Assembly (NCBI GenBank): GCA_022865305.1
Contig: JALHSP010000062.1
Coordinates: 124,001-188,000 of the forward strand
Length of the DNA: 64,000 bases
Source: Bacteroidales bacterium
GTDB taxonomy: Bacteria > Bacteroidota > Bacteroidia > Bacteroidales > VadinHA17
Reading direction: 5' to 3'
This document shows, piece by piece, positions 1 through 10,317 of this stretch (positions within the stretch are counted from its first letter, which is position 1; every line of letters begins with the position of its first letter). The position numbers and the translations under genes were made by a program. The notes beneath the pieces are model-generated. The model was not told the DNA's origin. It did no database searches and was given only the letters and a program-made list of their open reading frames with translations.

Positions 1-1
1 A

Positions 2-721
2 TGGGAAAAATTACAATTGGAAGAAGATGAGTTCTTTGAAGATAAAATATTGGATTTAAAAGCTTACAAAGGATACTGGATATCACAAAGCGATCTAAAA
101 TCTTTTATAGAAAAGAAGACAAAGTTTTCATGGATGATTGGATATCGAGACATTACAAATATTTCTACCAATCGAAGAACGACCATCTGCACTTTTTTGC
201 CCTTGTTTGGAATGGTAGATCCTTTGCGTTGTATTTATTTTGGAGACAAAAGTATACCTACAGACGCTCTCCTTCTCCTTGCTAATCTGAATTCTTTTGT
301 TTTTGATTATTGTTCACGCCAAAAACTAAGTGGCTCACATTTAGCTATATTTATTTTGAAACAATTACCCATAATCAATAAAAGATTTATCTCAGAAAAG
401 CTTATTACTTTGATAACTAACCATGTTCTCAAATTAACATACACTTCACATTCGTTAGACGCTCTAGCTGAAGATTTGAATATAGTTGCAAAATGTTTTC
501 ATTGGGATGAAAAGCAGAGGATGCTTCTTCAATGCGAGCTTGATGCTATTTATGCCCATCTCTATGGCCTCGAGAAGGATGAGTTAGACTATATACTTGA
601 GACCTTCCCAATTGTAAAACGAAAGGATATTGAAAAGTATGGCAGCTACCGGACAAAGGAGACCATATTGAAGCTTTATGATGAATTTGCCTGGGTAAAG
701 GAAGAGATGAAAGGCAATTAA
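2..721 (+). CDS. C-terminal part of an Eco57I-like N6-adenine DNA methylase (5' end outside window)
   Basis: The reading frame is open to the left edge, so this is the 3' end of a longer gene; the TTG at 17 is only the first start-like codon in the visible part. About 239 codons are seen. The segment reading LLANLNSFVFDYCSRQKLSG followed by ILKQLP, and the end with AELDAIYAHLYGL-like spacing and YGSYRTKE, resemble the specificity/C-terminal region of large N-6 adenine methylases of the Eco57I type. These enzymes occur alone or in defence systems together with DUF1998 helicases. The catalytic NPPY motif would lie upstream and cannot be checked. Family assignment rests on remembered C-terminal patterns. 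Role in DNA modification within the adjacent helicase island is inferred. Confidence 0.7.
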   Translation, partial: WEKLQLEEDEFFEDKILDLKAYKGYWISQSDLKSFIEKKTKFSWMIGYRDITNISTNRRTTICTFLPLFGMVDPLRCIYFGDKSIPTDALLLLANLNSFVFDYCSRQKLSGSHLAIFILKQLPIINKRFISEKLITLITNHVLKLTYTSHSLDALAEDLNIVAKCFHWDEKQRMLLQCELDAIYAHLYGLEKDELDYILETFPIVKRKDIEKYGSYRTKETILKLYDEFAWVKEEMKGN

Positions 722-749
722 GGCGATAAATTAAAATAATCGTGCATTT

Positions 750-849
750 ATAGCATTTATTCAATTATTCGTATTTATATACGATATTATATAATTATCT
801 ATTTTTTTAGCGATAATTGGTGAAATAGATAAAAAATGCTATATCTTTG
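750..849 (+). promoter_or_regulatory. Control region of satD: inverted repeats and -33/-7 promoter candidate
   Basis: The 131-bp gap between the methylase and satD is very AT-rich. It contains a perfect 9-bp inverted repeat (ATAGCATTT at 750-758 and AAATGCTAT at 834-842) and a small perfect hairpin, CGTAT/ATACG, at 770-783. TATCTTTG at 842-849 fits the Bacteroidota -7 element TAnnTTTG, with TTG at 817-819 placed 22 bases upstream as a -33 element. The right arm of the repeat abuts the -7 box, so a bound regulator could block it; SatD itself has an HTH. The -7 box ends only three bases before the satD ATG, implying a very short or absent 5' leader. Confidence 0.45.
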
Positions 850-852
850 GGT

Positions 853-1488
853 ATGATCATTTCAGGTGCTGTTATAACAGCAGACATAGTAAACTCATCA
901 GTCCTTGGCACTATCGCTGTTAACAAGCTGGCAGAGAGACTGAAAGAGCTTATAAACGCAAATCAGGCTAAGTTTCTCTCTTTCTACCGCGGCGACAGCT
1001 TCCAGGGTTATCTCGTCGATCCTTATCCTGCCTATAAACTGGCACTTCAATTAAGAACTGAAACAAAACTGTTTCAGGCCGAAGCGCCCGAAGTAGAAAT
1101 TGACCTCAGAATATCTTTGGGAATAGGAGGTATTGATACCCCTGTAACTCATATAAACAGCGCTATGGGAGGAGCATTTGTTTTGTCGGGTCGCGGATTG
1201 GATGAATTTGAAAAAACAGGAAGAAAGTTTATAATTAAGTCGGAAGATCCGGCTGTAAACATTGCACTGGAGACCATCAGTCTTTTTACCGATTATCTCT
1301 TCAGCGATTTAACAATCAAACAGGCAGAGGTACTACAACATCTTCTGAACAACCGTACACAGATTGAAACTGCAAGAATTTTAAAAAAATCCCAATCTAC
1401 AATTAACAGTCATGTGCAGGCGCTGGGTTGGGCCGAAATGGAACAATTGCTTGATATTTATAATCAGTGCATTCAGAAAATAACCTAA
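853..1488 (+). CDS. SatD family protein: class III cyclase-like domain plus HTH
   Basis: A protein of 211 residues from ATG 853; the upstream TTG at 847 lies inside the putative promoter box and is rejected. The N-terminal ~150 residues follow the pattern of class III nucleotide cyclases: a first strand ending in ADIV (Asp11), a second acidic site YRGDSFQ (Asp48), LRISLGIGG near 85-93, and GGAFVLSGRGLDEF near 106-118. Both metal-binding Asp positions of cyclases are therefore kept. The C-terminal ~60 residues (QAEVLQHLL, then QIETARILKKSQSTINSHVQAL) form a LuxR/sigma-like helix-turn-helix. SatD proteins are usually paired with DUF3307 proteins, as here (4-bp gap). The family has no established biochemical activity; nucleotide cyclase activity is inference. 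Confidence 0.8.
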   Translation: MIISGAVITADIVNSSVLGTIAVNKLAERLKELINANQAKFLSFYRGDSFQGYLVDPYPAYKLALQLRTETKLFQAEAPEVEIDLRISLGIGGIDTPVTHINSAMGGAFVLSGRGLDEFEKTGRKFIIKSEDPAVNIALETISLFTDYLFSDLTIKQAEVLQHLLNNRTQIETARILKKSQSTINSHVQALGWAEMEQLLDIYNQCIQKIT

Positions 1489-1492
1489 CCTA

Positions 1493-2203
1493 ATGGATAA
1501 TGCAATAATCTGGCTCATACGTCTTCTTGCAGCCCACCTTATCACAGACTTCGTTCTTCAACCCGACTCCTGGGTAAAAGCCAAAAGAGAAAAACACCTT
1601 AAAGCAAAGGAGTTCTGGTTCCATATCTTGCTGACTACCCTGGTCGCTATATGGTTTACCTGCTTTGAAGGGTGGTGGTGGATAGCGCTTATGATATTTG
1701 TAACTCACTGGCTGATTGATTGGTGGAAAAGCTATCAGAAAGACTCAATTATCTCGTTTGTCACCGATCAGGTACTGCATTTATTGGTCATATTAATCAT
1801 CTGGAAGATTAAATTTCCACAAGCAACAAATATCACAGGACTGTTCAATACCTGCATTACAGATAAATCGTTCTGGATTGTTTTGATTGCCCTGGTCTTT
1901 TTAACCAAACCGGTGGGTGTAATAATAGGGATGATCACTGCCCCTTTTCGTGAAAAGATAAAAGAGTTAAACGAGAACACTCTTGAGAACGCCGGAACAT
2001 GGATCGGCATTCTTGAAAGGGTAATCATATTTTTCCTTGTGCTTATAAATCAGTGGGAAGCAATTGGTCTACTTGTAGCAGCCAAATCAATTATAAGATT
2101 GAAAGACGGAGATCAGAAAATGAGTGAGTATGTTCTGATCGGTACTCTTATCAGCGTTTCCGTTGCCGTCATCACCGGCTTTATCGTCACAAAACTAATT
2201 TAA
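1493..2203 (+). CDS. DUF3307 membrane protein (SatE-like)
   Basis: A predicted integral membrane protein of 236 residues. Hydrophobic segments lie at about 5-22, 44-62, 64-75, 90-105, 125-150, 170-190 and 212-234. The start (LIRLLAAHLITDFVLQPDSW) carries the conserved AAHLxxDFxLQ motif of DUF3307, and a histidine-containing segment, FVTHWLIDWWKS, follows near residue 70. It begins 4 bp after satD and ends 5 bp before the helicase gene, so the three are probably one transcript. In streptococci satD and satE are neighbours in an acid-tolerance operon; a molecular function is not known. The pairing with a cyclase-like protein suggests a membrane effector or sensor, which is inference. Confidence 0.8.
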   Translation: MDNAIIWLIRLLAAHLITDFVLQPDSWVKAKREKHLKAKEFWFHILLTTLVAIWFTCFEGWWWIALMIFVTHWLIDWWKSYQKDSIISFVTDQVLHLLVILIIWKIKFPQATNITGLFNTCITDKSFWIVLIALVFLTKPVGVIIGMITAPFREKIKELNENTLENAGTWIGILERVIIFFLVLINQWEAIGLLVAAKSIIRLKDGDQKMSEYVLIGTLISVSVAVITGFIVTKLI

Positions 2204-2208
2204 ATATT

Positions 2209-5200
2209 ATGGATCCGTTCAGGGTTTATGATGAGGTAAAACATCAGTATTATTCTTTCATAAAAACTTTCCAGGTTTTTAAGAAAAAGGAGATAGAAGA
2301 CTATGTAGCAAATGCCGTTACTAAAAGGCAGATGCTATGGCAGGAGCCTATCATACAGATTACCAAAAGGTTTAAATCGGGTAAGTCTCTAATAGAAATG
2401 ATCAGGGGAAAAATCCTGCACCCTCAAATCGAACAATTTTTTCCTTTAGATCCATATTATCATCAGCAGAAAGCGATCGAAATTGCAGTCGGAAAAAAAC
2501 AAAATCTTGTTGTTACTACCGGAACAGGATCAGGTAAATCTCTATGCTTTGAAGTACCTGCAATTAATTATTGCCTTAGTGCAAAAGAAAAAGGTCTTCC
2601 GGGAATAAAAGCCATTATGATTTACCCCATGAATGCCCTGGCCAATTCGCAGTACCAGGAATTGTCGGTTATGCTTGAAAACAGTGGCATCACAATTGGT
2701 CTATATACTGGCGATACTGAAACAACCGGCTCCGCTGCCCTGGCTGCCTATAAAGAGATCTTCGGGGACGAGGCTGAACCAAAAAAATGCGAGATAATCG
2801 ACAGGGAGCAGTTAAGAAGAACACCTCCTGATATCCTGATTACCAACTATGCACAATTAGAGTTATTACTTACAAGAAACGATGATGCAGCTTTATTCAG
2901 GGACGGAATAAAAGAAAATCTCCAATTCCTTATTCTTGATGAGATTCATACTTACACCGGCAAGCAGGGTGCAGATGTAGCATTCCTGGTAAGAAGGTTA
3001 AAACAAAAAACTAATACAAAAGGGAAACTTATCTGCATAGGAACATCCGCAACAATGGTCAGCGATAAGGCTGATGATAAATCGAATGAAGCTGTTGCCG
3101 GATTTGCTTCAAGACTATTTGGTGAAGAGTTCCTGCCTGAAAATGTCGTCACTGAGGAGCAAGACAAGACAATATGGTTTGAAGGCAATATTTTAAACCC
3201 CGGTGTATCTGTTACAGGGGAGATGCTCGATGCATTTAATTTAAACGACCTGCAGAGCGCCATACCGCTCCTTGAAGCAATCATGGGTTACAAATATTCC
3301 GGAAATCCTGATAGAATCTCACTAGGTAATGAATTGAAAAAATCATTATTGCTTTCCTTCCTCGAAAAATCATTAAAAGAGGTAAAAAGTTTTGGGGATC
3401 TGGTAAGCGAATATAAAGCTCTCCATCGAAAAAATGAAAATGAAGACTCGTGCAGGCTTGAGATTCATGCCGGTCTATTACTCGGAATGTCGGGTACAGT
3501 GATCTCCGGTATGGGTAAGGAGGTGCCAAGGTTTGTTCCCAAAATACACGCTTTTTACAATCAAGGGGCTGAACTAAAAGGATGCTTAGTTGACGGTTGC
3601 GGCTATTTAAGTGATACCGGTGAAACTACATGTCCCAGGTGTCAGGAAAATGATCGTCCCAGAGCAACTTTATATCCATTACATTTTTGCCGGACCTGTG
3701 GTCAGGAATATTATGGAGTTAGTTATGATCCGGACAATAACAAGGCGGAACCGTGGACATTTAACGAGGACAAAACCTCTGGAATTTGTGGATATTACAC
3801 ACCGGAATTCAAGGAAACCCTGGCAGAAGTTCCGGAGCATTGGCTTACACCCAAGAAAAGAGAGTTAAAAAGTAAATATAAGGAGAGAAAGCCAATCCTT
3901 GGCAAGCTCAACACCGAGGACAACACCTTTACCGAATATTTTGATGATGAAGTAGATATAGGTACTCTGATGCCTCAACCTCTGCCTTATTGTCTGAACT
4001 GCAGAACATACCATTCAGGTTCCTCGACAGAGTTTTCCAAGATATTCTTACTGAACTCGGTGGGCAGGGCAACAGGGACTGATGTGATAGTTGCCGCATC
4101 AATAAATGCTTCGCCCGGTGCTGAAAAAAAAGTAATAGGATTTACCGATAACCGCCAGGATGCTGCCTTTCAAGCCGGACATATGGATCAATGGTATAAT
4201 CAAATCTATTTCAGGCGTGCATTATATAACATCCTGAAAGAGCAAAAGGGTTTTGTACCTGTGAATGAACTTCCAAAGTTGTTATATCCGCTGATAATTA
4301 ATGATGAGTCAAAAATTCCTTTTGTTCAACGTAGGATTTTTAAGAACAAATTCCTCGAGTATCTTGAAACATACCTCTATGTTGAGATAAGAGGAACAAA
4401 AAGATTTCTTTCAATCAATCTTGAGGATGTAGGACTTCTTGAAGTTGGCTATGAACAACTTCAAGAGGCGTTGCAACAACCCTCATTGCAAAGATTTGAA
4501 TTTCTGAGAAATATCGAAAAGCTCTTACTTAATGATTACGTCAAAGGATTTCTTGAGATTTTCAGACGAGAGATGGCTATCGGACATCCTAATCTGATTG
4601 ATAAAGCTACCTTTAAACAACAGACAATTAACCTGATTCAGAACTACGCTCCGGAGAAAAGAATTTTTGAAGCGGTTGAGGACACGAATGTGGGTATTTT
4701 CACTAATGGCAACAAAGAACTTTTTAAATATTCTGATTTTACTTTTCATGCACTGGATGGATCAAGAGCTCTTAACAGTTGGATAAAAAAGTGCTTTGAT
4801 ATTGCAACGACAGATGGTATTGTTGAATTAATAAAGGAGAGCGTCGCCTTTCTATGTGAAATTGGGTTTATCACTTCACAGAAGTTTAAGGGTAGCGATA
4901 TTTATTATCTTCAACCTGAAGTATTATTGGTTAGAGCTCCTGCAAAGGAATTTAGACAGGAGTGCAGAAAATGTGGTTCAAAATACAATTGGAATCAGAT
5001 GAACTATTGTTTGAGAGCCACATGCAAAGGAGAACTTGAATTACCGGTACATACCGATAACTTCTATTTTTATCAATATACTTTACCATTTATCGGAGCT
5101 GAGAACATCGTTTCAGAAGATCATTCAGGACAGGTGTCCGGCCAGTTAAGAAAAGAGAGAGAAAATAAATTTAAAAAAACTCCTCCTGATATTCAGTTTT

Positions 5201-7365
5201 TGATGGCTACTCCCACAATGGAACTGGGTATTGATATAGGTACTTTGTCGTCAGTATATCTGCGGAATGTACCACCAAACCCAAGCAATTACGCTCAAAG
5301 GGCCGGAAGAGCAGGCCGAAGCGGACAGGGCTCAATTGTACAAACTTTCTGTGGCAGTGGTCCGGGAAGAGGTGCCCACGACCAGTACTATTACAGAAAT
5401 CCTGTTGAGATTGTATCAGGTAAAATTGCTGTTCCTCGTTTTAACCTTACTAATCCGACATTGTTTGCAGCACATATTAACTCACTGATAATTCAGGTAG
5501 TATCAAAAAAGATCGAAACCAAACCATATGTATTTATTGATTTTTCAAACTATAACGAGCTTCCAATTCTATCAAGCTACCTTGATGAACTCCTTACCCT
5601 GACCCAAACTAACAGACAAAAAATCGTTGATAATATTAAGGAGGCATTTGGCAAAGAGATAGAAGAGTCGGAAGGTCATATTTCATGGCAGGAGGTTTAT
5701 GAGCAGGTTGATCAGTTTGTTTACAACTTCGATGTAGCATTCAATAAAATGAGAGATGACTACAGGGAATCGCTTAAAGAAGTTTTAGAGATAAACAGGA
5801 TGAGACTTGAAGACAGAGCACATGATTTTGTTCTTTCAAGCCGGCGGGAAGCACTTGAAAAAAGAAATGAAAACCTGAAAAACGGGAAAGAAGAGTTTTA
5901 TGTTTATCGTTATCTGAGCCAGGTCGGCTTTCTGCCGAATTATGCATTCCCACAGAAAATCACATCAATTAAATTCCTCCATCAGAAAGAAGAAGAGGAA
6001 CTGGTCAGGGACCAAAGTATTGCAATTAGAGAATTCGCTCCGCATAATACAATCTATTACGGCGGGCAAAAGTATGCCATTAAAGCCTTAAGCAAAGAGA
6101 CAGACCCGAATAACATAATTTCAATTGCAGTCTGCCCTGATTGTGAACACATTGAAATTCTTTCAGCTTCGTCGGGACTCCCAAATAATTGTCCTAATTG
6201 TGGGTCAGTCTGGGAATCAAACCGGGCAATACCCTCACTTAAATTCCCCCGGATGAGAGCTGTTAGACAGACAAGAATCACCGCTGATGAGGAAGAGAGA
6301 CTGAAGGGAGGTTATAAGGTGATTAACAGTTACAAACCTACCTCTAAAGCAATTGTAAAAGAAGCAAAAACAAATGAGAGGACATTTTGTAAAATAGCCT
6401 TTGAAAGAAGCGCAAAGCTCTGTCATCTGAACTTGGGGCAGATGGTAGATTACAACGAACAGAGATATGGCTTCAATCTTGATCCTGTCAATTTTAATTG
6501 GGTACCACATTTAAAAATAGAAGAATATTGCATTGAGAAAAAGATAGCTCAAAATCAGTTAAGAAAAGGAATCTCACTATTAACGGAATCAAGAAATGAT
6601 GTAATTACTATACAGTTAACTGAGCCGTTTAAGGGTGATGAAGAAGTTTTTGCAAAGACATTAATAAATGCCTTAATTCAAAGTATTTGTACAATATTAA
6701 ATCTCGATGATGATGAAATAAATGGACTCTACCAACCTATAGTAGGGCAAAATGGAAAGATGGTAATTTTTGAAACATCAGAAGGAGGGACAGGTACATT
6801 ATCATCCATTATCGGCGACACTGAATTATTAAGAAGAATTGCAGCTAAATCCCTGAGCATTCTTCACTTCGACATATCCGGTAATGACCTTGTAGGAGCT
6901 TGTCTGAAATCCTGTTATTCATGTATCTGTAATTTCTACAACCAGCGCGATCACAAATTCTTTGACCGAAACACCGTAAAAGAGTTTCTGATTCAATTAA
7001 TGAGCATTGATACATTACATTCTTCAATTGATGATAATGTTCAGTTTGATGCTTTTATGAAAATGAACCTGACAACTTTGGAAACTGAAGTTTTGAAAAG
7101 ACTCAGGGAACAAAAAGCAAGAATCCCTTCGGAAATTCACAAGGTAATCTCAAAGGATGCCGAACCAATTGCTGAAGCAGATTTCTACTATGATCCAAAG
7201 ATTTGTGTTTTTATTGATGGCCCGGATCATGACAAAGAACATATTAAGATAGATGATGCTAAAAAGAGAGCAAAATTAAAAAGTCTTGGATATAAAGTAA
7301 TGGTTGTTTCATATAAAGGAGTCAGTAATGGGATTGATGAATTAATTAAAAGTATTCAGCCGTAA
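2209..7365 (+). CDS. Giant DEAD/DEAH helicase with DUF1998-type region and C-terminal nuclease-like domain (DruE/DISARM-like)
   Basis: A protein of 1718 residues. Superfamily 2 motifs are clear: Walker A GTGSGKS (105-111), DEIH (244-247), GTSATM near 281, and QRAGRAGR (1030-1037) after LMATPTMELGIDIG. Several CxxC zinc-binding pairs lie near 465-505 and 910-940 and around 1305-1330. A DUF1998-like region ends in the cysteine cluster C1565-x3-C-x2-C-x-C. The last ~80 residues contain EADFYYDP (Asp1658), VFIDGPDHD (Asp1670) and LKSLGYKVMVV, the layout of Vsr/DUF559-like nuclease folds. Size and layout resemble DruE of Druantia and the DrmA/DrmB helicases of DISARM, but the exact system is not recognised. 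It lies 5 bp behind the DUF3307 gene, which implies co-expression and possibly co-function. Confidence 0.85.
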   Translation: MDPFRVYDEVKHQYYSFIKTFQVFKKKEIEDYVANAVTKRQMLWQEPIIQITKRFKSGKSLIEMIRGKILHPQIEQFFPLDPYYHQQKAIEIAVGKKQNLVVTTGTGSGKSLCFEVPAINYCLSAKEKGLPGIKAIMIYPMNALANSQYQELSVMLENSGITIGLYTGDTETTGSAALAAYKEIFGDEAEPKKCEIIDREQLRRTPPDILITNYAQLELLLTRNDDAALFRDGIKENLQFLILDEIHTYTGKQGADVAFLVRRLKQKTNTKGKLICIGTSATMVSDKADDKSNEAVAGFASRLFGEEFLPENVVTEEQDKTIWFEGNILNPGVSVTGEMLDAFNLNDLQSAIPLLEAIMGYKYSGNPDRISLGNELKKSLLLSFLEKSLKEVKSFGDLVSEYKALHRKNENEDSCRLEIHAGLLLGMSGTVISGMGKEVPRFVPKIHAFYNQGAELKGCLVDGCGYLSDTGETTCPRCQENDRPRATLYPLHFCRTCGQEYYGVSYDPDNNKAEPWTFNEDKTSGICGYYTPEFKETLAEVPEHWLTPKKRELKSKYKERKPILGKLNTEDNTFTEYFDDEVDIGTLMPQPLPYCLNCRTYHSGSSTEFSKIFLLNSVGRATGTDVIVAASINASPGAEKKVIGFTDNRQDAAFQAGHMDQWYNQIYFRRALYNILKEQKGFVPVNELPKLLYPLIINDESKIPFVQRRIFKNKFLEYLETYLYVEIRGTKRFLSINLEDVGLLEVGYEQLQEALQQPSLQRFEFLRNIEKLLLNDYVKGFLEIFRREMAIGHPNLIDKATFKQQTINLIQNYAPEKRIFEAVEDTNVGIFTNGNKELFKYSDFTFHALDGSRALNSWIKKCFDIATTDGIVELIKESVAFLCEIGFITSQKFKGSDIYYLQPEVLLVRAPAKEFRQECRKCGSKYNWNQMNYCLRATCKGELELPVHTDNFYFYQYTLPFIGAENIVSEDHSGQVSGQLRKERENKFKKTPPDIQFLMATPTMELGIDIGTLSSVYLRNVPPNPSNYAQRAGRAGRSGQGSIVQTFCGSGPGRGAHDQYYYRNPVEIVSGKIAVPRFNLTNPTLFAAHINSLIIQVVSKKIETKPYVFIDFSNYNELPILSSYLDELLTLTQTNRQKIVDNIKEAFGKEIEESEGHISWQEVYEQVDQFVYNFDVAFNKMRDDYRESLKEVLEINRMRLEDRAHDFVLSSRREALEKRNENLKNGKEEFYVYRYLSQVGFLPNYAFPQKITSIKFLHQKEEEELVRDQSIAIREFAPHNTIYYGGQKYAIKALSKETDPNNIISIAVCPDCEHIEILSASSGLPNNCPNCGSVWESNRAIPSLKFPRMRAVRQTRITADEEERLKGGYKVINSYKPTSKAIVKEAKTNERTFCKIAFERSAKLCHLNLGQMVDYNEQRYGFNLDPVNFNWVPHLKIEEYCIEKKIAQNQLRKGISLLTESRNDVITIQLTEPFKGDEEVFAKTLINALIQSICTILNLDDDEINGLYQPIVGQNGKMVIFETSEGGTGTLSSIIGDTELLRRIAAKSLSILHFDISGNDLVGACLKSCYSCICNFYNQRDHKFFDRNTVKEFLIQLMSIDTLHSSIDDNVQFDAFMKMNLTTLETEVLKRLREQKARIPSEIHKVISKDAEPIAEADFYYDPKICVFIDGPDHDKEHIKIDDAKKRAKLKSLGYKVMVVSYKGVSNGIDELIKSIQP

Positions 7366-7380
7366 CAATATAGGTACTAA

Positions 7381-7641
7381 GTTGGGACTAAGCTGGCACC
7401 AAGTTGGCACCAGGTTGAAACGCTGCTTGATTACTGTGAAGAACCCAGGATGATTCAGGAAATGATGTTCCGGATGGAATGGAAAGATCGAATTAAGTTC
7501 CGGAAAAAATATATTTCTCCTCTTATCGAAGGAGGCATTCTTAGTATGACATATCCCGAAAACCCAACAAGTCCCAAACAACAATATTATTTAACAGACA
7601 AGGGGAGAATATTCCTTCAAAAAATTCGAAAGCAGGATTAA
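7381..7641 (+). pseudogene. 3' remnant of an AlbA_2/Fic-type winged-helix DNA-binding protein
   Basis: An open frame of 86 codons without a plausible start at its 5' end; an in-frame stop lies at 7378 and the first ATG (7450) is mid-domain. It reads VGTKLAPSWHQVE, then LLDYCEEPR, MEWKDRIKFRKKYISPLIE, MTYPENPTSPKQQYYLTDKG. This is the conserved C-terminal winged helix of large Bacteroidota ATP-binding (AlbA_2) or Fic-family proteins, where LGTKLGxSWxQV repeats precede the WKDRTKFRNKF motif. Everything upstream is missing, as the helicase gene ends only 15 bases earlier. Family naming is from memory of this motif; the truncation itself is visible. Confidence 0.6.
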
Positions 7642-7646
7642 CAGAT

Positions 7647-7996
7647 ATGATAAGTCGTTTTTCATCAAGAGTAAACAATCTTGGAAAGACATTCTTTAAA
7701 AATGCACTCCGGAATACAGTATAGGATCGTGTCCATAACTTCTTGCATCAAGGTTAAAGAATATACGGGATCTTTTTGGGCAAATACCTGATACGCTTGA
7801 ATATGTTTGGGTAGAGGTTGCTTTGAACAGGATAGAGGAAGCCGAAAAGCGCATCTCCGATTTTTCTGAGAACGACACCCATCCATTCTACAACAAATAC
7901 CAGAACCAGGCCAATACTAAGCCCATTAAATGGGAAGACTGTGCAATTGTTTTAGACAGATATGAAAAGAGGAAATATCTTATGGAAGGATGGTAA
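7647..7996 (+). pseudogene. Probable internal-deletion scar of an unidentified gene
   Basis: Two short coding-like pieces lie in different frames. The first starts at ATG 7647 and runs 25 codons to a stop at 7722-7724, ending KTFFKNALRNTV. The second is open from 7739 to a TAA at 7994-7996, with no in-frame start at its 5' end; it contains LFGQIPDTLEYVWVEVAL and ends YEKRKYLMEGW. Both have ordinary coding composition. The arrangement suggests the start and the end of one gene brought together with a frame change by a deletion, or two separate fragments. The beginning vaguely resembles the N-terminus of phospholipase D-type helicase partners, but this is too short to claim. Confidence 0.35.
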
Positions 7997-8120
7997 ACCA
8001 TAAACATAAGACAAAATTTAAAAACAAAAAATAATCTAAATACAAACAAAAAAATACTCAGTAAATAAGTCATCATGAATAATAAATAAAGAGAGAAGAA
8101 TTTGTTTTTATAAAATAAAT

Positions 8121-8138
8121 GTGGTAATTTCATACCAC
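8121..8138. promoter_or_regulatory. Perfect palindrome, candidate XRE operator
   Basis: GTGGTA (8121-8126) and TACCAC (8133-8138) form a perfect 6-bp inverted repeat with a 6-bp spacer, centred 26 bases upstream of the ATG of the XRE gene. Size and place fit an autoregulatory operator for a dimeric lambda-type HTH protein. The 157 bp before it (7997-8120) is AT-rich and contains no gene that I can see. Confidence 0.45.
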
Positions 8139-8155
8139 AAAACCTGAAATGAACT

Positions 8156-8530
8156 ATGAAAACATCATTTGCCAATTTCATTCGTGAAAAAAGGATTGCC
8201 GCAGGATTGACCCTGAGGGAATTTTGCAGACTCTCCGGATTTGATGCCAGCAACTGGAGCAAAGTGGAAAGAGGACTTTTATCCCCACCCCAGAGCAAAA
8301 AGGTACTTAATAAAATAGCAGCCGTCCTAAAAATAAAGGAAGGAAGCCAGGAATATAAAGAGATGATTGACCTGGCTGCTTTATCGACTATACCGGAAGG
8401 TCTTATCGAATCTGAAATACTTGAACAGTTGCCGGTTTTCTTCCGGACTGTCAGGGGAGAAAACCCCACTGAGGAAGAACTTAAAACTCTGCTAAATAAA
8501 ATTAAATCTGCATGGACTTCCGAAAAATAA
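8156..8530 (+). CDS. XRE-family transcriptional regulator
   Basis: A protein of 124 residues. The N-terminal ~65 residues form a lambda/Cro-type HTH: IREKRIAAGLTLREFCRLSG, then DASNWSKVERGLLSPP, with the recognition helix around SNWSKVERG. The C-terminal half is acidic and helical and has no recognised motif. Regulators of this size and type often precede an ImmA/IrrE-like peptidase or a toxin. Here the downstream partner is reduced to a 25-codon stub that overlaps the 3' end. The likely target is its own promoter through the palindrome at 8121-8138, which is inference from position. Confidence 0.8.
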   Translation: MKTSFANFIREKRIAAGLTLREFCRLSGFDASNWSKVERGLLSPPQSKKVLNKIAAVLKIKEGSQEYKEMIDLAALSTIPEGLIESEILEQLPVFFRTVRGENPTEEELKTLLNKIKSAWTSEK

Positions 8531-8589
8531 TTCCGGCACAACTGACCATTAAGCAATTATGGGATGATATCGAGACTTTTCGCAATTAA
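8512..8589 (+). pseudogene. 25-codon stub overlapping the XRE gene, possible remnant of its partner
   Basis: An ATG within the last codons of the XRE gene opens a frame of 25 residues, from MDFRKIIPAQL to DDIETFRN, and then stops. Overlap with an upstream antitoxin-type regulator is the usual arrangement for a co-translated partner, and the sequence is loosely like the first residues of ImmA/IrrE peptidases. The next gene starts 30 bp later and is unrelated. It may equally be a genuine short peptide or chance. Confidence 0.25.
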
Positions 8590-8619
8590 CAGAATCTTTA
8601 AGGACAAGTATAGAATACT

Positions 8620-10317
8620 ATGAAGATACCACTAAGCAATTTCGAGCAATACATCGACGAGACCATTCTTAAACGCGGGCTGGATTATTTTAAAAGAGGC
8701 CATGTTGCCAGTTTCGATGAGATAACCCCGGGCGAATTTGAGGCGGTTGTTGAGGGGAATGAACAATATACCGTCAGGCTAAAAGTCAGAAACAACACTG
8801 TCATCGAAAATTCATGCACCTGCCCGTATGATTACGGTTCTGTATGCAAACATGTGGCAGCGGTACTTTTTTATATGCAGCAGGAAGAGCTCGGACTGAA
8901 ACTGCCTGTAAATAAGAAAGGAGCAAAAAACAAACCTGCCACTAAAAGAAAAACCGTTTCGGAACAGGTTGACGAACTGCTCGATTCGCTTTCGCACGAC
9001 GATTTAAAAAAATTTATAAAAGAGCAAAGCCTCACCGATGCTGTGTTCCGCCGGTCGTTCCTTTTCGGTTTTGCACATAAATTTTCGGGTGAATCACCGG
9101 CAATGTACCGCCAGCAGGTAAAAAACATTTTAAGGAGCGCCATGGGGCGCGACAGGTTTATTGGCTGGTCAAATGCCGGGATGGTAGGCAAGGCTGTATT
9201 TGGTTTGCTCGGTATGGCAATGAAGCATGTTGAATCCGGGAACTATATGAGCGCCATTTTTATCTGCCTTCCCGTTGCGGAAGAGATGGTTAAAGCACTC
9301 GACTTTGCAGATGATAGCAACGGCGATATAGGCAGCAATATTGAAACAGCTTTTGAGATACTCAATAAAATTGCATCAGAAGAGATCCCCGAAGATGTTC
9401 GTCTCTATTTTTTTAAACAATGCTTAGACCTTCACAGAAAAGGTGTTTTCAGTGGGTGGGACTGGCATTTAACTATTTTACATTTAGCATCTCTCCTGGC
9501 TGAATCAGACAGCGAGGCAGAATCAGTATTTTTGCTTCTCGATAATCCCGGTCTTTCAGAATATCAGAAAGAAGAAGCGGAGGATATAAAATACGAGCTT
9601 CTCAAAAAAATGAAGGGAGACACTGAAGCAGAGAAGTTTATGGAACAAAATATAGACAATCCGGAACTCAGACGCAAAGCCATCGATAAAGCGCTTAAGG
9701 GAGAAAAATATGATATGGCAATCTCTCTTGCCCGTGATGGTATAAGTCTGGATTCAAAAGACAAACCCGGACTGGCAAAGGAATGGTACGACTGGCTGTT
9801 GCGGGTTGTAATTGCTCAGAAAGACAAGCCCCGGATAATTGAATATGCACATTTTCTGTTTGTGGACGGTTTTCGTCAAGATCAGGATTATTACAGTATT
9901 CTTAAGCAACATATTGAACCGGCTGAATGGGCCGGTTATGTTGCAGGACTCGTTAATGAGATAAGAAGTAAAGACAGGTGGTCGAAATTTGGAGTTATCG
10001 GTAAGATTTACATAACCGAAAAATGGTGGGAGAGACTTCTAGAACTAGTCAGTGAAACGAAGCATCTGCCTTATATACAGCATTATGAGCAGTATCTGGC
10101 TGATAAATATCCCACTGAACTGGCAGATCTTTATGAGTTGGGAATTATTGATTATCTAAAAAGATCTGTTGGCAGAAACCATTATAAAGAAGCCTGCCGC
10201 TACATGCGCCGGATGATCAAACTGGGTGCCAGCGACCGGGTAAACAAGCTGGTGGCAAACCTCCGTAAAGAATACCCGCTGCGAACCGCGTTAATAGATG
10301 AATTGAACAAGCTCTAG
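8620..10317 (+). CDS. SWIM zinc-finger protein
   Basis: A protein of 565 residues. Near the N-terminus, C66-x-C68-x7-C76-x-H78 (CTCPYDYGSVCKH) is a canonical SWIM zinc finger, a module for DNA or protein binding found with SNF2 helicases and in stand-alone proteins. A basic linker follows at about 92-108. The remaining ~450 residues are helical and repeat-like (motifs such as YDMAISLARDGI and EYAHFLFVDGF), resembling tandem helical hairpins used as protein-interaction scaffolds. No catalytic motif was found. In Bacteroidota the gene often neighbours an SNF2 helicase; none is here. The 50-bp gap from the stub before it is short, so it may share a transcript with the XRE gene. Confidence 0.8.
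   Translation: MKIPLSNFEQYIDETILKRGLDYFKRGHVASFDEITPGEFEAVVEGNEQYTVRLKVRNNTVIENSCTCPYDYGSVCKHVAAVLFYMQQEELGLKLPVNKKGAKNKPATKRKTVSEQVDELLDSLSHDDLKKFIKEQSLTDAVFRRSFLFGFAHKFSGESPAMYRQQVKNILRSAMGRDRFIGWSNAGMVGKAVFGLLGMAMKHVESGNYMSAIFICLPVAEEMVKALDFADDSNGDIGSNIETAFEILNKIASEEIPEDVRLYFFKQCLDLHRKGVFSGWDWHLTILHLASLLAESDSEAESVFLLLDNPGLSEYQKEEAEDIKYELLKKMKGDTEAEKFMEQNIDNPELRRKAIDKALKGEKYDMAISLARDGISLDSKDKPGLAKEWYDWLLRVVIAQKDKPRIIEYAHFLFVDGFRQDQDYYSILKQHIEPAEWAGYVAGLVNEIRSKDRWSKFGVIGKIYITEKWWERLLELVSETKHLPYIQHYEQYLADKYPTELADLYELGIIDYLKRSVGRNHYKEACRYMRRMIKLGASDRVNKLVANLRKEYPLRTALIDELNKL

Follow-up and report, generated by a model that had tools for sequence, protein, structure and literature searches.

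A SatD-DUF3307 gene pair was found directly ahead of a YprA-family helicase gene in a 64,000-nucleotide stretch of a Bacteroidales genome (contig JALHSP010000062.1, positions 124,001 to 188,000; hereafter the window). Compared by gene content, this locus corresponds to an ARMADA Type I-like operon into which SatD-DUF3307 has been inserted between the methylase and YprA genes. The favoured reading of the whole, which was given about an even chance (0.5), is an ARMADA Type I-like operon with an embedded, autoregulated SatD-DUF3307 sensor-membrane module that has been repeatedly recruited into defence operons. The pair has repeatedly been inserted before restriction-modification (R-M), ARMADA and TOTE effectors, which suggests that dangerous nucleases share a means of being controlled or guarded. 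DUF3307 is present in roughly one in four of the phylum genomes sampled, yet the pair looks little studied because both names scarcely appear in the literature searched (supplements and most subscription journals lay outside the search): DUF3307 was found in a jumbo-phage gene table, "SatD family protein" was likewise scarcely mentioned, and nothing was found on "SatD" with "hsdR".

An ARMADA-like operon carrying SatD and DUF3307

The satD, DUF3307 and helicase genes were co-directional, with gaps of 4 bp and 5 bp, as a sequence-only reading of the window had described. That reading also placed an Eco57I-like methylase ahead of the three genes. Leftward extension recovered it: the partial gene at the window's left edge (2-721) was the 3' part of a 1019-amino acid (aa) methylase (L001 13662-16721) starting about 2.3 kb left of the window, with DrmMI as the best model and PglX as a weaker one. 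Left of the window, the same strand carried a 201-aa open reading frame (ORF), then two overlapping helicase ORFs, then the methylase. The two overlapping ORFs, of 430 and 528 aa in different frames, made up a BrxHII/DrmD-like SNF2 helicase (matches to DrmD/BrxHII models). In the relative G001 the BrxHII-like helicase was a single 949-aa gene, so the window helicase is broken by a frameshift, either a real lesion or an assembly error. The G001 methylase was 1275 aa long.

BrxHII-PglX-YprA is the ARMADA Type I gene set in reversed order, and Bell et al. (2025; PMC12458937), whose main text does not mention SatD, DUF3307 or "cyclase", report an order with YprA last in numerous archaea and cyanobacteria. 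The window locus resembles ARMADA Type I in its YprA-family helicase, BrxHII/RapA-like helicase and PglX-like methylase, and differs in carrying SatD-DUF3307 between methylase and YprA. Because the BrxHII/DrmD-like helicase and PglX-like methylase belong to the operon, which continues leftward as ARMADA-like, a new three-gene system was rejected in favour of an ARMADA-type system. Druantia was rejected as well. DruE3 and DruE1 were the best PADLOC models for the window helicase; its partners, however, were BrxHII- and PglX-like, and the PADLOC matches listed for its upstream neighbours and for the two genes that follow it included no DruH.

YprA relatives were surveyed by a scan of genome contigs, and the best 80 YprA-like loci among the matches listed were compared. 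SatD and DUF3307 were found together in two of them, L071 (the G001 contig) and L069. In the two nearest YprA relatives (77% and 64% identity, the latter being L069) the pair occupied the same place before YprA; the L069 contig begins just before satD. The nearest YprA loci had the same ARMADA gene set as the window. Since the trio recurs in the two nearest relatives, SatD-DUF3307-YprA is not a chance neighbourhood, and the grouping of a cyclase-like protein with a helix-turn-helix (HTH), a polytopic membrane protein and a DruE/DISARM-kind helicase, proposed from the sequence alone, stands as one conserved operon. The sensor-effector function suggested for it in the same reading is a candidate role only. 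Proportions of nonsynonymous and synonymous differences between the window and G001 (pN/pS) were 0.21/0.77 for SatD, 0.18/0.78 for DUF3307 and 0.14/0.82 for YprA, with pS saturated; judged from these coding sequences, the changes are conservative in all three.

The commonest order among the 80 loci was YprA-BrxHII-PglX (38 loci), where the pair was absent. In L070 (53% identity) the slot between PglX and YprA was filled by an Abi_2 gene (8984-9982; PF07751, 1.7e-56), and the haloarchaeal loci L072 and L073 (35% identity) had no insert there. Two further observations concern the operon's other genes. In G001, PglX and SatD were separated by an 81-aa ORF and by the gene of a 142-aa retropepsin-like protein (PF00077, 5e-6; L030 11395-12068). 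The 201-aa ORF of the window's operon (L001 10152-10757), 77 bp 5' of the BrxHII-like gene, contained the letters RNDVAHH, which by eye resemble the HEPN RxxxxH motif, and had no Pfam match at 0.01.

Tandem operator-like sites and the SatD recognition helix

A palindrome of approximately AAATATCG..TTAA..CGATATTT was recovered from satD leaders by expectation maximization (EM). Motif scores of at least 12 bits were reached in 64/124 SatD leaders and in 2/689 control leaders, from which those shared with satD were excluded. Without any motif model, a direct repeat (at least 16 of 22 positions) with a best distance of 28 or 29 bp was found in 93/133 SatD leaders and in 10/689 controls. The 28-bp repeat was also present in plasmid leaders from Vibrio (20 of 22), from Pseudoalteromonas (18) and from Salinivibrio (17 and 16), and was not found in those of Halorientalis and Sphingomonas. 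Under the motif model, a tandem pair at 26-31 bp was present in 56/123 leaders, against 0 or 1 in ten shuffles. A scan of 2.33 Mb for tandem pairs at 8 bits each returned 95 in SatD leaders and nine elsewhere; eight of the nine likewise preceded satD, where an ORF start had been called too far upstream or the leader was long, and the ninth was behind DUF3307 in L036.

A promoter-like region had been noted ahead of the trio, and it is there that the window's tandem palindromic sites were located, the only sites of at least 11 bits in its 64,000 bases. The direct repeat of G001 reached 16 of 22. The letters TATCTTTG, which fit the Bacteroidota -7 box consensus TAnnTTTG, were unchanged 5' of satD in G001. 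No Rfam match was found in window positions 1-8600 at gathering scores, and a known RNA in the leader was rejected on that ground. Across loci satD retained a leader of its own, with a median gap of 140 bp to a co-directional upstream gene (n=77).

SatD comprised a putative N-terminal cyclase/palm-like region (about residues 1-130) and a C-terminal HTH (about 150-205). Across the 77 leaders in which sites were clear, the strongest covariation of half-site bases 7, 8 and 9 was with residues 186, 183 and 186, respectively. Among 41 representatives (<55% identity), residue 183 ranked first of 196 columns for base 8 (z 6.5), and residues 182 and 186 ranked first and second for base 7. Residues 182, 183 and 186 sit where the HTH recognition helix is expected. 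The residue at 183 paired with the operator base as follows: Ser with G in 24/31, Thr with G in 10/13, Ala with A in 15/20 and Asn with T in 6/7. Because operator bases covary with recognition-helix residues, SatD very probably binds the tandem palindromes 5' of its own gene. Putative autoregulation by SatD is the part of the reading with real comparative evidence, and the conserved operator array, with its readable residue-to-base code, offers an activity of SatD that can be tested.

The tandem repeats could instead act as RNA, in the manner of a type III antitoxin. In type III toxin-antitoxin loci tandem repeats immediately precede the first gene, as they do in the satD loci. The covariation of bases with recognition-helix residues and the lack of an Rfam match in the part of the window scanned speak against such a role, and the AT-rich symmetric half-sites fit a dimeric DNA-binding protein; an RNA function is highly improbable.

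Residues D11 and D48 of SatD were invariant (129/129) and may bind metal. Searched against the PDB, the SatD profile gave cyclases at E 0.0012-0.0042 (residues 3-98) and, with weaker scores, NarL/RcsB-like HTHs. A match to mCpol was found in one of 14 aligned SatD members (E 0.0039) and not in the window protein. A cyclase-type fold is to be taken as a lead only. PF16264 was matched by 8 of the 14 members, which include the window's (best 1.2e-12); the window protein had no match at E<=0.1 and is apparently too diverged for this model. The window DUF3307 protein scored 84.2 bits against PF11750 (cut-off 23). DUF3307 had six hydropathy peaks and many near-invariant polar residues; H15, D19, Q23, H44, H72, D76, D92, Q93, H96, E175, R176, K198, S199, R202, E212 and Y213 were kept in at least 124 of 129 sequences. 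The sole match of the DUF3307 profile to PDB sequences was at E 0.36.

Distribution of the pair and linkage to restriction genes

DUF3307 was above the cut-off in 6/60 relatives (the window's genome included), 95/394 phylum genomes and 61/393 order genomes, nearly always as a single copy. The genomic context was compared at 125 loci (80 from the phylum, 40 from the order and 5 from relatives). The phylum set used 80 of the 95 genomes with DUF3307, leaving out the window's genome and 14 low-scoring ones; of the 61 order genomes, 40 gave new loci, 7 were already in other sets and 14 were left out. Profiles identified both SatD and DUF3307 in 115/120 phylum and order loci, the exceptions lacking one of the two (L178, L205, L209, L222 and L225). 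Most pairs stood in ordinary chromosomal surroundings. Co-occurrence with helicases of the YprA kind, suggested as a check in the sequence-only reading, was seen in the window and, among the 80 YprA loci compared, in its two nearest relatives; the other 78, some of them on contigs too short to show the slot, had no pair in view, and most pairs stood elsewhere.

Seven of the 125 loci had the pair inside a Type I R-M operon. The order was HsdM-HsdS-SatD-DUF3307-HsdR in L286 and L292, HsdM..HsdS..SatD-DUF3307-HsdR in L152 and L188, HsdR-SatD-DUF3307-HsdM-HsdS in L035 and HsdR-x-HsdS-SatD-DUF3307-HsdM in L288; L304 was listed with the same order as L288, its genes being fragmentary. At five further loci (L205, L273, L281, L282 and L299) the pair lay beside Type I genes or remnants. 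The order set contributed four loci inside and four beside out of 40, and the relatives one inside out of five. In the window's genus (36 genomes, its own included) three had DUF3307 above the cut-off, and all three pairs were in defence operons. In L229, a viral-collection record resembling an integrated mobile element, the pair stood 4 bp before a TOTE primase-helicase (PF22548, 9e-98); viral contigs held only two DUF3307 loci.

In total, 64 HsdM_N matches were found in the 40 order genomes (160 Mb). For the 40 order-set pairs, which this statistic covers, an hsdM gene lay within 8.2 kb of five (G640, G724, G644, G619 and G608) against 0.26 expected, an excess of about 19-fold (Poisson P 8e-6). 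Twenty displaced control windows taken from order genomes, a small control set, gave no match to the reference set.

Trees were built from 129 pairs with both ORFs >150 aa; L287 (contig end) and L304 (short DUF3307) were left out. The ARMADA pairs formed one clade with a support of 100. The six in-operon Type I pairs on the tree needed six separate changes, and with four neighbours added the ten rows needed nine. A single origin of the Type I linkage was rejected, as the six constrained to one clade failed the approximately unbiased (AU) test, which was run on a quick tree lacking four long rows, for a group named after the first tree was seen. The separate entries of the pair into other restriction operons suggest that it is a portable device by which defences that destroy DNA are controlled or guarded.

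A few loci outside these sets, or with further genes, were also observed. On a Sphingomonas insulae plasmid (L236) the pair stood beside a Pycsar-like cyclase/effector set, a TIR protein and an AAA ATPase/helicase pair. A TOTE primase-helicase (L304 1-2721) lay a few genes behind the degraded SatD-DUF3307/Type I R-M locus. Large phages (L239, L240; RsoM2USA, PMC8504454) encoded short DUF3307-like membrane proteins of about 110-134 aa, with no satD annotated beside them in the two stretches examined (L239, L240); a decoy or inhibitor role for the short proteins is possible.

Proposed mechanism and rival explanations

In intact defence operons satD lay 76-221 bp behind the upstream gene, and the distance from DUF3307 to the next gene was -4 to +6 bp. 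Because the pair brings its own leader and DUF3307 runs into the next gene, SatD very probably controls an internal promoter feeding the gene behind. That gene was HsdR, YprA or TOTE in 9 of 11 in-operon cases (seven Type I loci, the window, G001, L069 and L229) and HsdM in the other two.

Comparison shows the operon, the recurrence of the pair, the tandem repeats and the recognition-helix match. The mechanism built on them would begin with the SatD HTH bound to the tandem palindromes ahead of satD, setting the internal promoter by repression or activation. The pair and YprA, 5 bp behind it, would then be expressed under SatD control. The cyclase-like domain may sense or turn over a nucleotide, and DUF3307 would be the membrane partner of SatD. 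On separate occasions the module has been inserted into Type I R-M and TOTE loci, in most cases immediately ahead of a gene for a DNA-translocating effector, where it would serve as a control or guard unit. A wider claim is only tentative: that SatD-DUF3307 is a general portable cassette in which the SatD palm makes or reads a nucleotide and switches its own tandem-operator promoter, with DUF3307, at the membrane, coupling the signal to a captured DNA-degrading effector (YprA, HsdR or the TOTE helicase). Were it true, restriction-type immunity would have a shared nucleotide-signal controller.

Several defence regulators bear comparison. BrxR, CapW and CapK-CapS, as far as their descriptions go, are likewise transcription regulators tied to diverse defence systems; they are other kinds of protein (WYL domains, or a kinase with a repressor). 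They are not known to have a membrane partner. Panoptes (mCpol-2TMbeta), as outlined in PMC12657230, also has a palm-domain enzyme adjoining a membrane protein; its effector, however, combines two transmembrane helices with a beta-barrel, the outline describes no HTH or operator array, and the window proteins had no clear match to it. The closest precedent comes from the RptR-Type I R-M-DarTG2 island, in which, according to the description in PMC12255303, an autoregulator binds tandem palindromes and a second module is lodged between hsdS and hsdR. The likeness lies in tandem palindromic repeats at a Type I R-M locus and in the lodged module. Compared by description, RptR is a 79-aa single-domain protein heading its operon, whereas SatD has 211 aa, a sensor-like domain and a membrane partner and lies inside the operon.

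The DarTG2 precedent also lends itself to another reading, a guard or toxin-antitoxin-like unit comparable to Panoptes. SatD would be an antitoxin-like regulator that makes or binds a nucleotide, DUF3307 a putative membrane toxin, and the unit would be set off by a disturbance of the helicase or R-M complex or of its nucleotide. The invariant D11 and D48, the weak cyclase matches and the single mCpol match agree with it, as do the order of regulator then membrane protein, often with a 4-bp overlap, the Abi_2 gene in the same slot of L070 and the place of DarTG2 between hsdS and hsdR (PMC12255303). The six hydropathy peaks of DUF3307 are not the two transmembrane helices and barrel of Panoptes, and at least two genera hold the pair at one chromosomal place, which is unusual for addiction modules. 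This reading is possible but doubtful. A pure passenger, that is, a portable two-gene unit of unrelated membrane or acid-stress function that lands before co-directional genes and hits defence operons as frequently rearranged targets, would account for the 113/125 loci without a Type I hsd match in the stretch (one of which is the ARMADA locus of G001) and for pairs within apparent nuo, V-ATPase and arginine operons. It is unlikely given the hsdM excess near order-set pairs, the unmatched displaced windows, the retention of the pair across 23-36% YprA divergence and the location of all three pairs of the genus in defence operons.

The embedded, autoregulated module has its own difficulties, and the following results weigh against it. 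The ARMADA link arose once. Only two phylum pairs were inside and one beside a Type I locus, of 80; the same three were found with a smaller and with the full R-M reference set. The next downstream gene was on the opposite strand in 49/120 loci (co-directional in 66), and the pair also stood inside apparent nuo, V-ATPase and proB/arginine operons (L293, L296 and L187; these names, and purC, were assigned by eye from N-termini), so the pair is self-contained and can do without a captured gene behind it. Where the following gene was co-directional, the median gap to it was 45.5 bp (n=78), with 20 bp or less in only 35%. No tandem pair was found by the motif model in 67/123 leaders; the window's own direct repeat was 15 of 22 at 29 bp, just below the threshold of 16, that of L035 was 14, L069 had a single site only, and L286, L292 and L229 scored low by motif despite 29-bp repeats. 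Base 10 covaried with no residue of the HTH top group in the 77 leaders, and among the 41 representatives base 9 covaried best with residue 99 of the N-terminal domain, outside the HTH, and second with 186. SatD had no match to one annotated cyclase when their profiles were compared. The frameshifted BrxHII and a methylase without about 290 internal residues present in G001 mean that the window copy of the operon may be dead.

The sequence-only reading had held that the linkage would be accidental if most relatives of the helicase lacked the pair and the pair stood at unrelated loci. Both were seen in part, in the 78 loci above and in the wide occurrence of DUF3307 in the phylum. Accident nevertheless fits poorly, because the window and its two nearest relatives share the linkage and pairs lie beside Type I R-M genes more often than expected.

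Table 1. Features of the window around the SatD-DUF3307 pair (genes called as longest ORFs; start positions approximate).
Feature	Position	Strand	Evidence or remark
DNA methylase, PglX/DrmMI-like (Eco57I), 3' end	2-721	+	PDLC02643 DrmMI 1e-82, PF07669 3e-15
Operator-like palindrome, copy 2	764-789		EM motif and scan, 11.0 bits, 29 bp from copy 1
Operator-like palindrome, copy 1	793-818		EM motif and scan, 16.5 bits
TATCTTTG, match to TAnnTTTG box, abuts satD start codon	842-849	+	Sequence
SatD-like protein, 211 aa	853-1488	+	In-frame TTG at 847 is an alternative start
DUF3307 membrane protein	1493-2203	+	PF11750 E=1e-23, six hydropathy peaks
YprA-family (ARMADA/Druantia-like) helicase, 1718 aa, putative C-terminal DUF559/Vsr-like nuclease region	2209-7365	+	

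The helicase contained DEAD and Helicase_C domains. Its MZB/DUF1998 match (23.7 bits) was just below the cut-off of 24.2, as was its DUF559 match at residues 1659-1717 (19.3 bits; cut-off 20.6). A search of the window's own genome with the MZB profile returned 0/1, the helicase's own domain scoring below the cut-off. Just 3' of the helicase (window 8156-10317) lay an HTH_31 gene whose CapH-like match was weak (2e-4); behind it came the gene of a 565-aa SWIM protein with a match (2e-13) to the PADLOC candidate PDC-S62.

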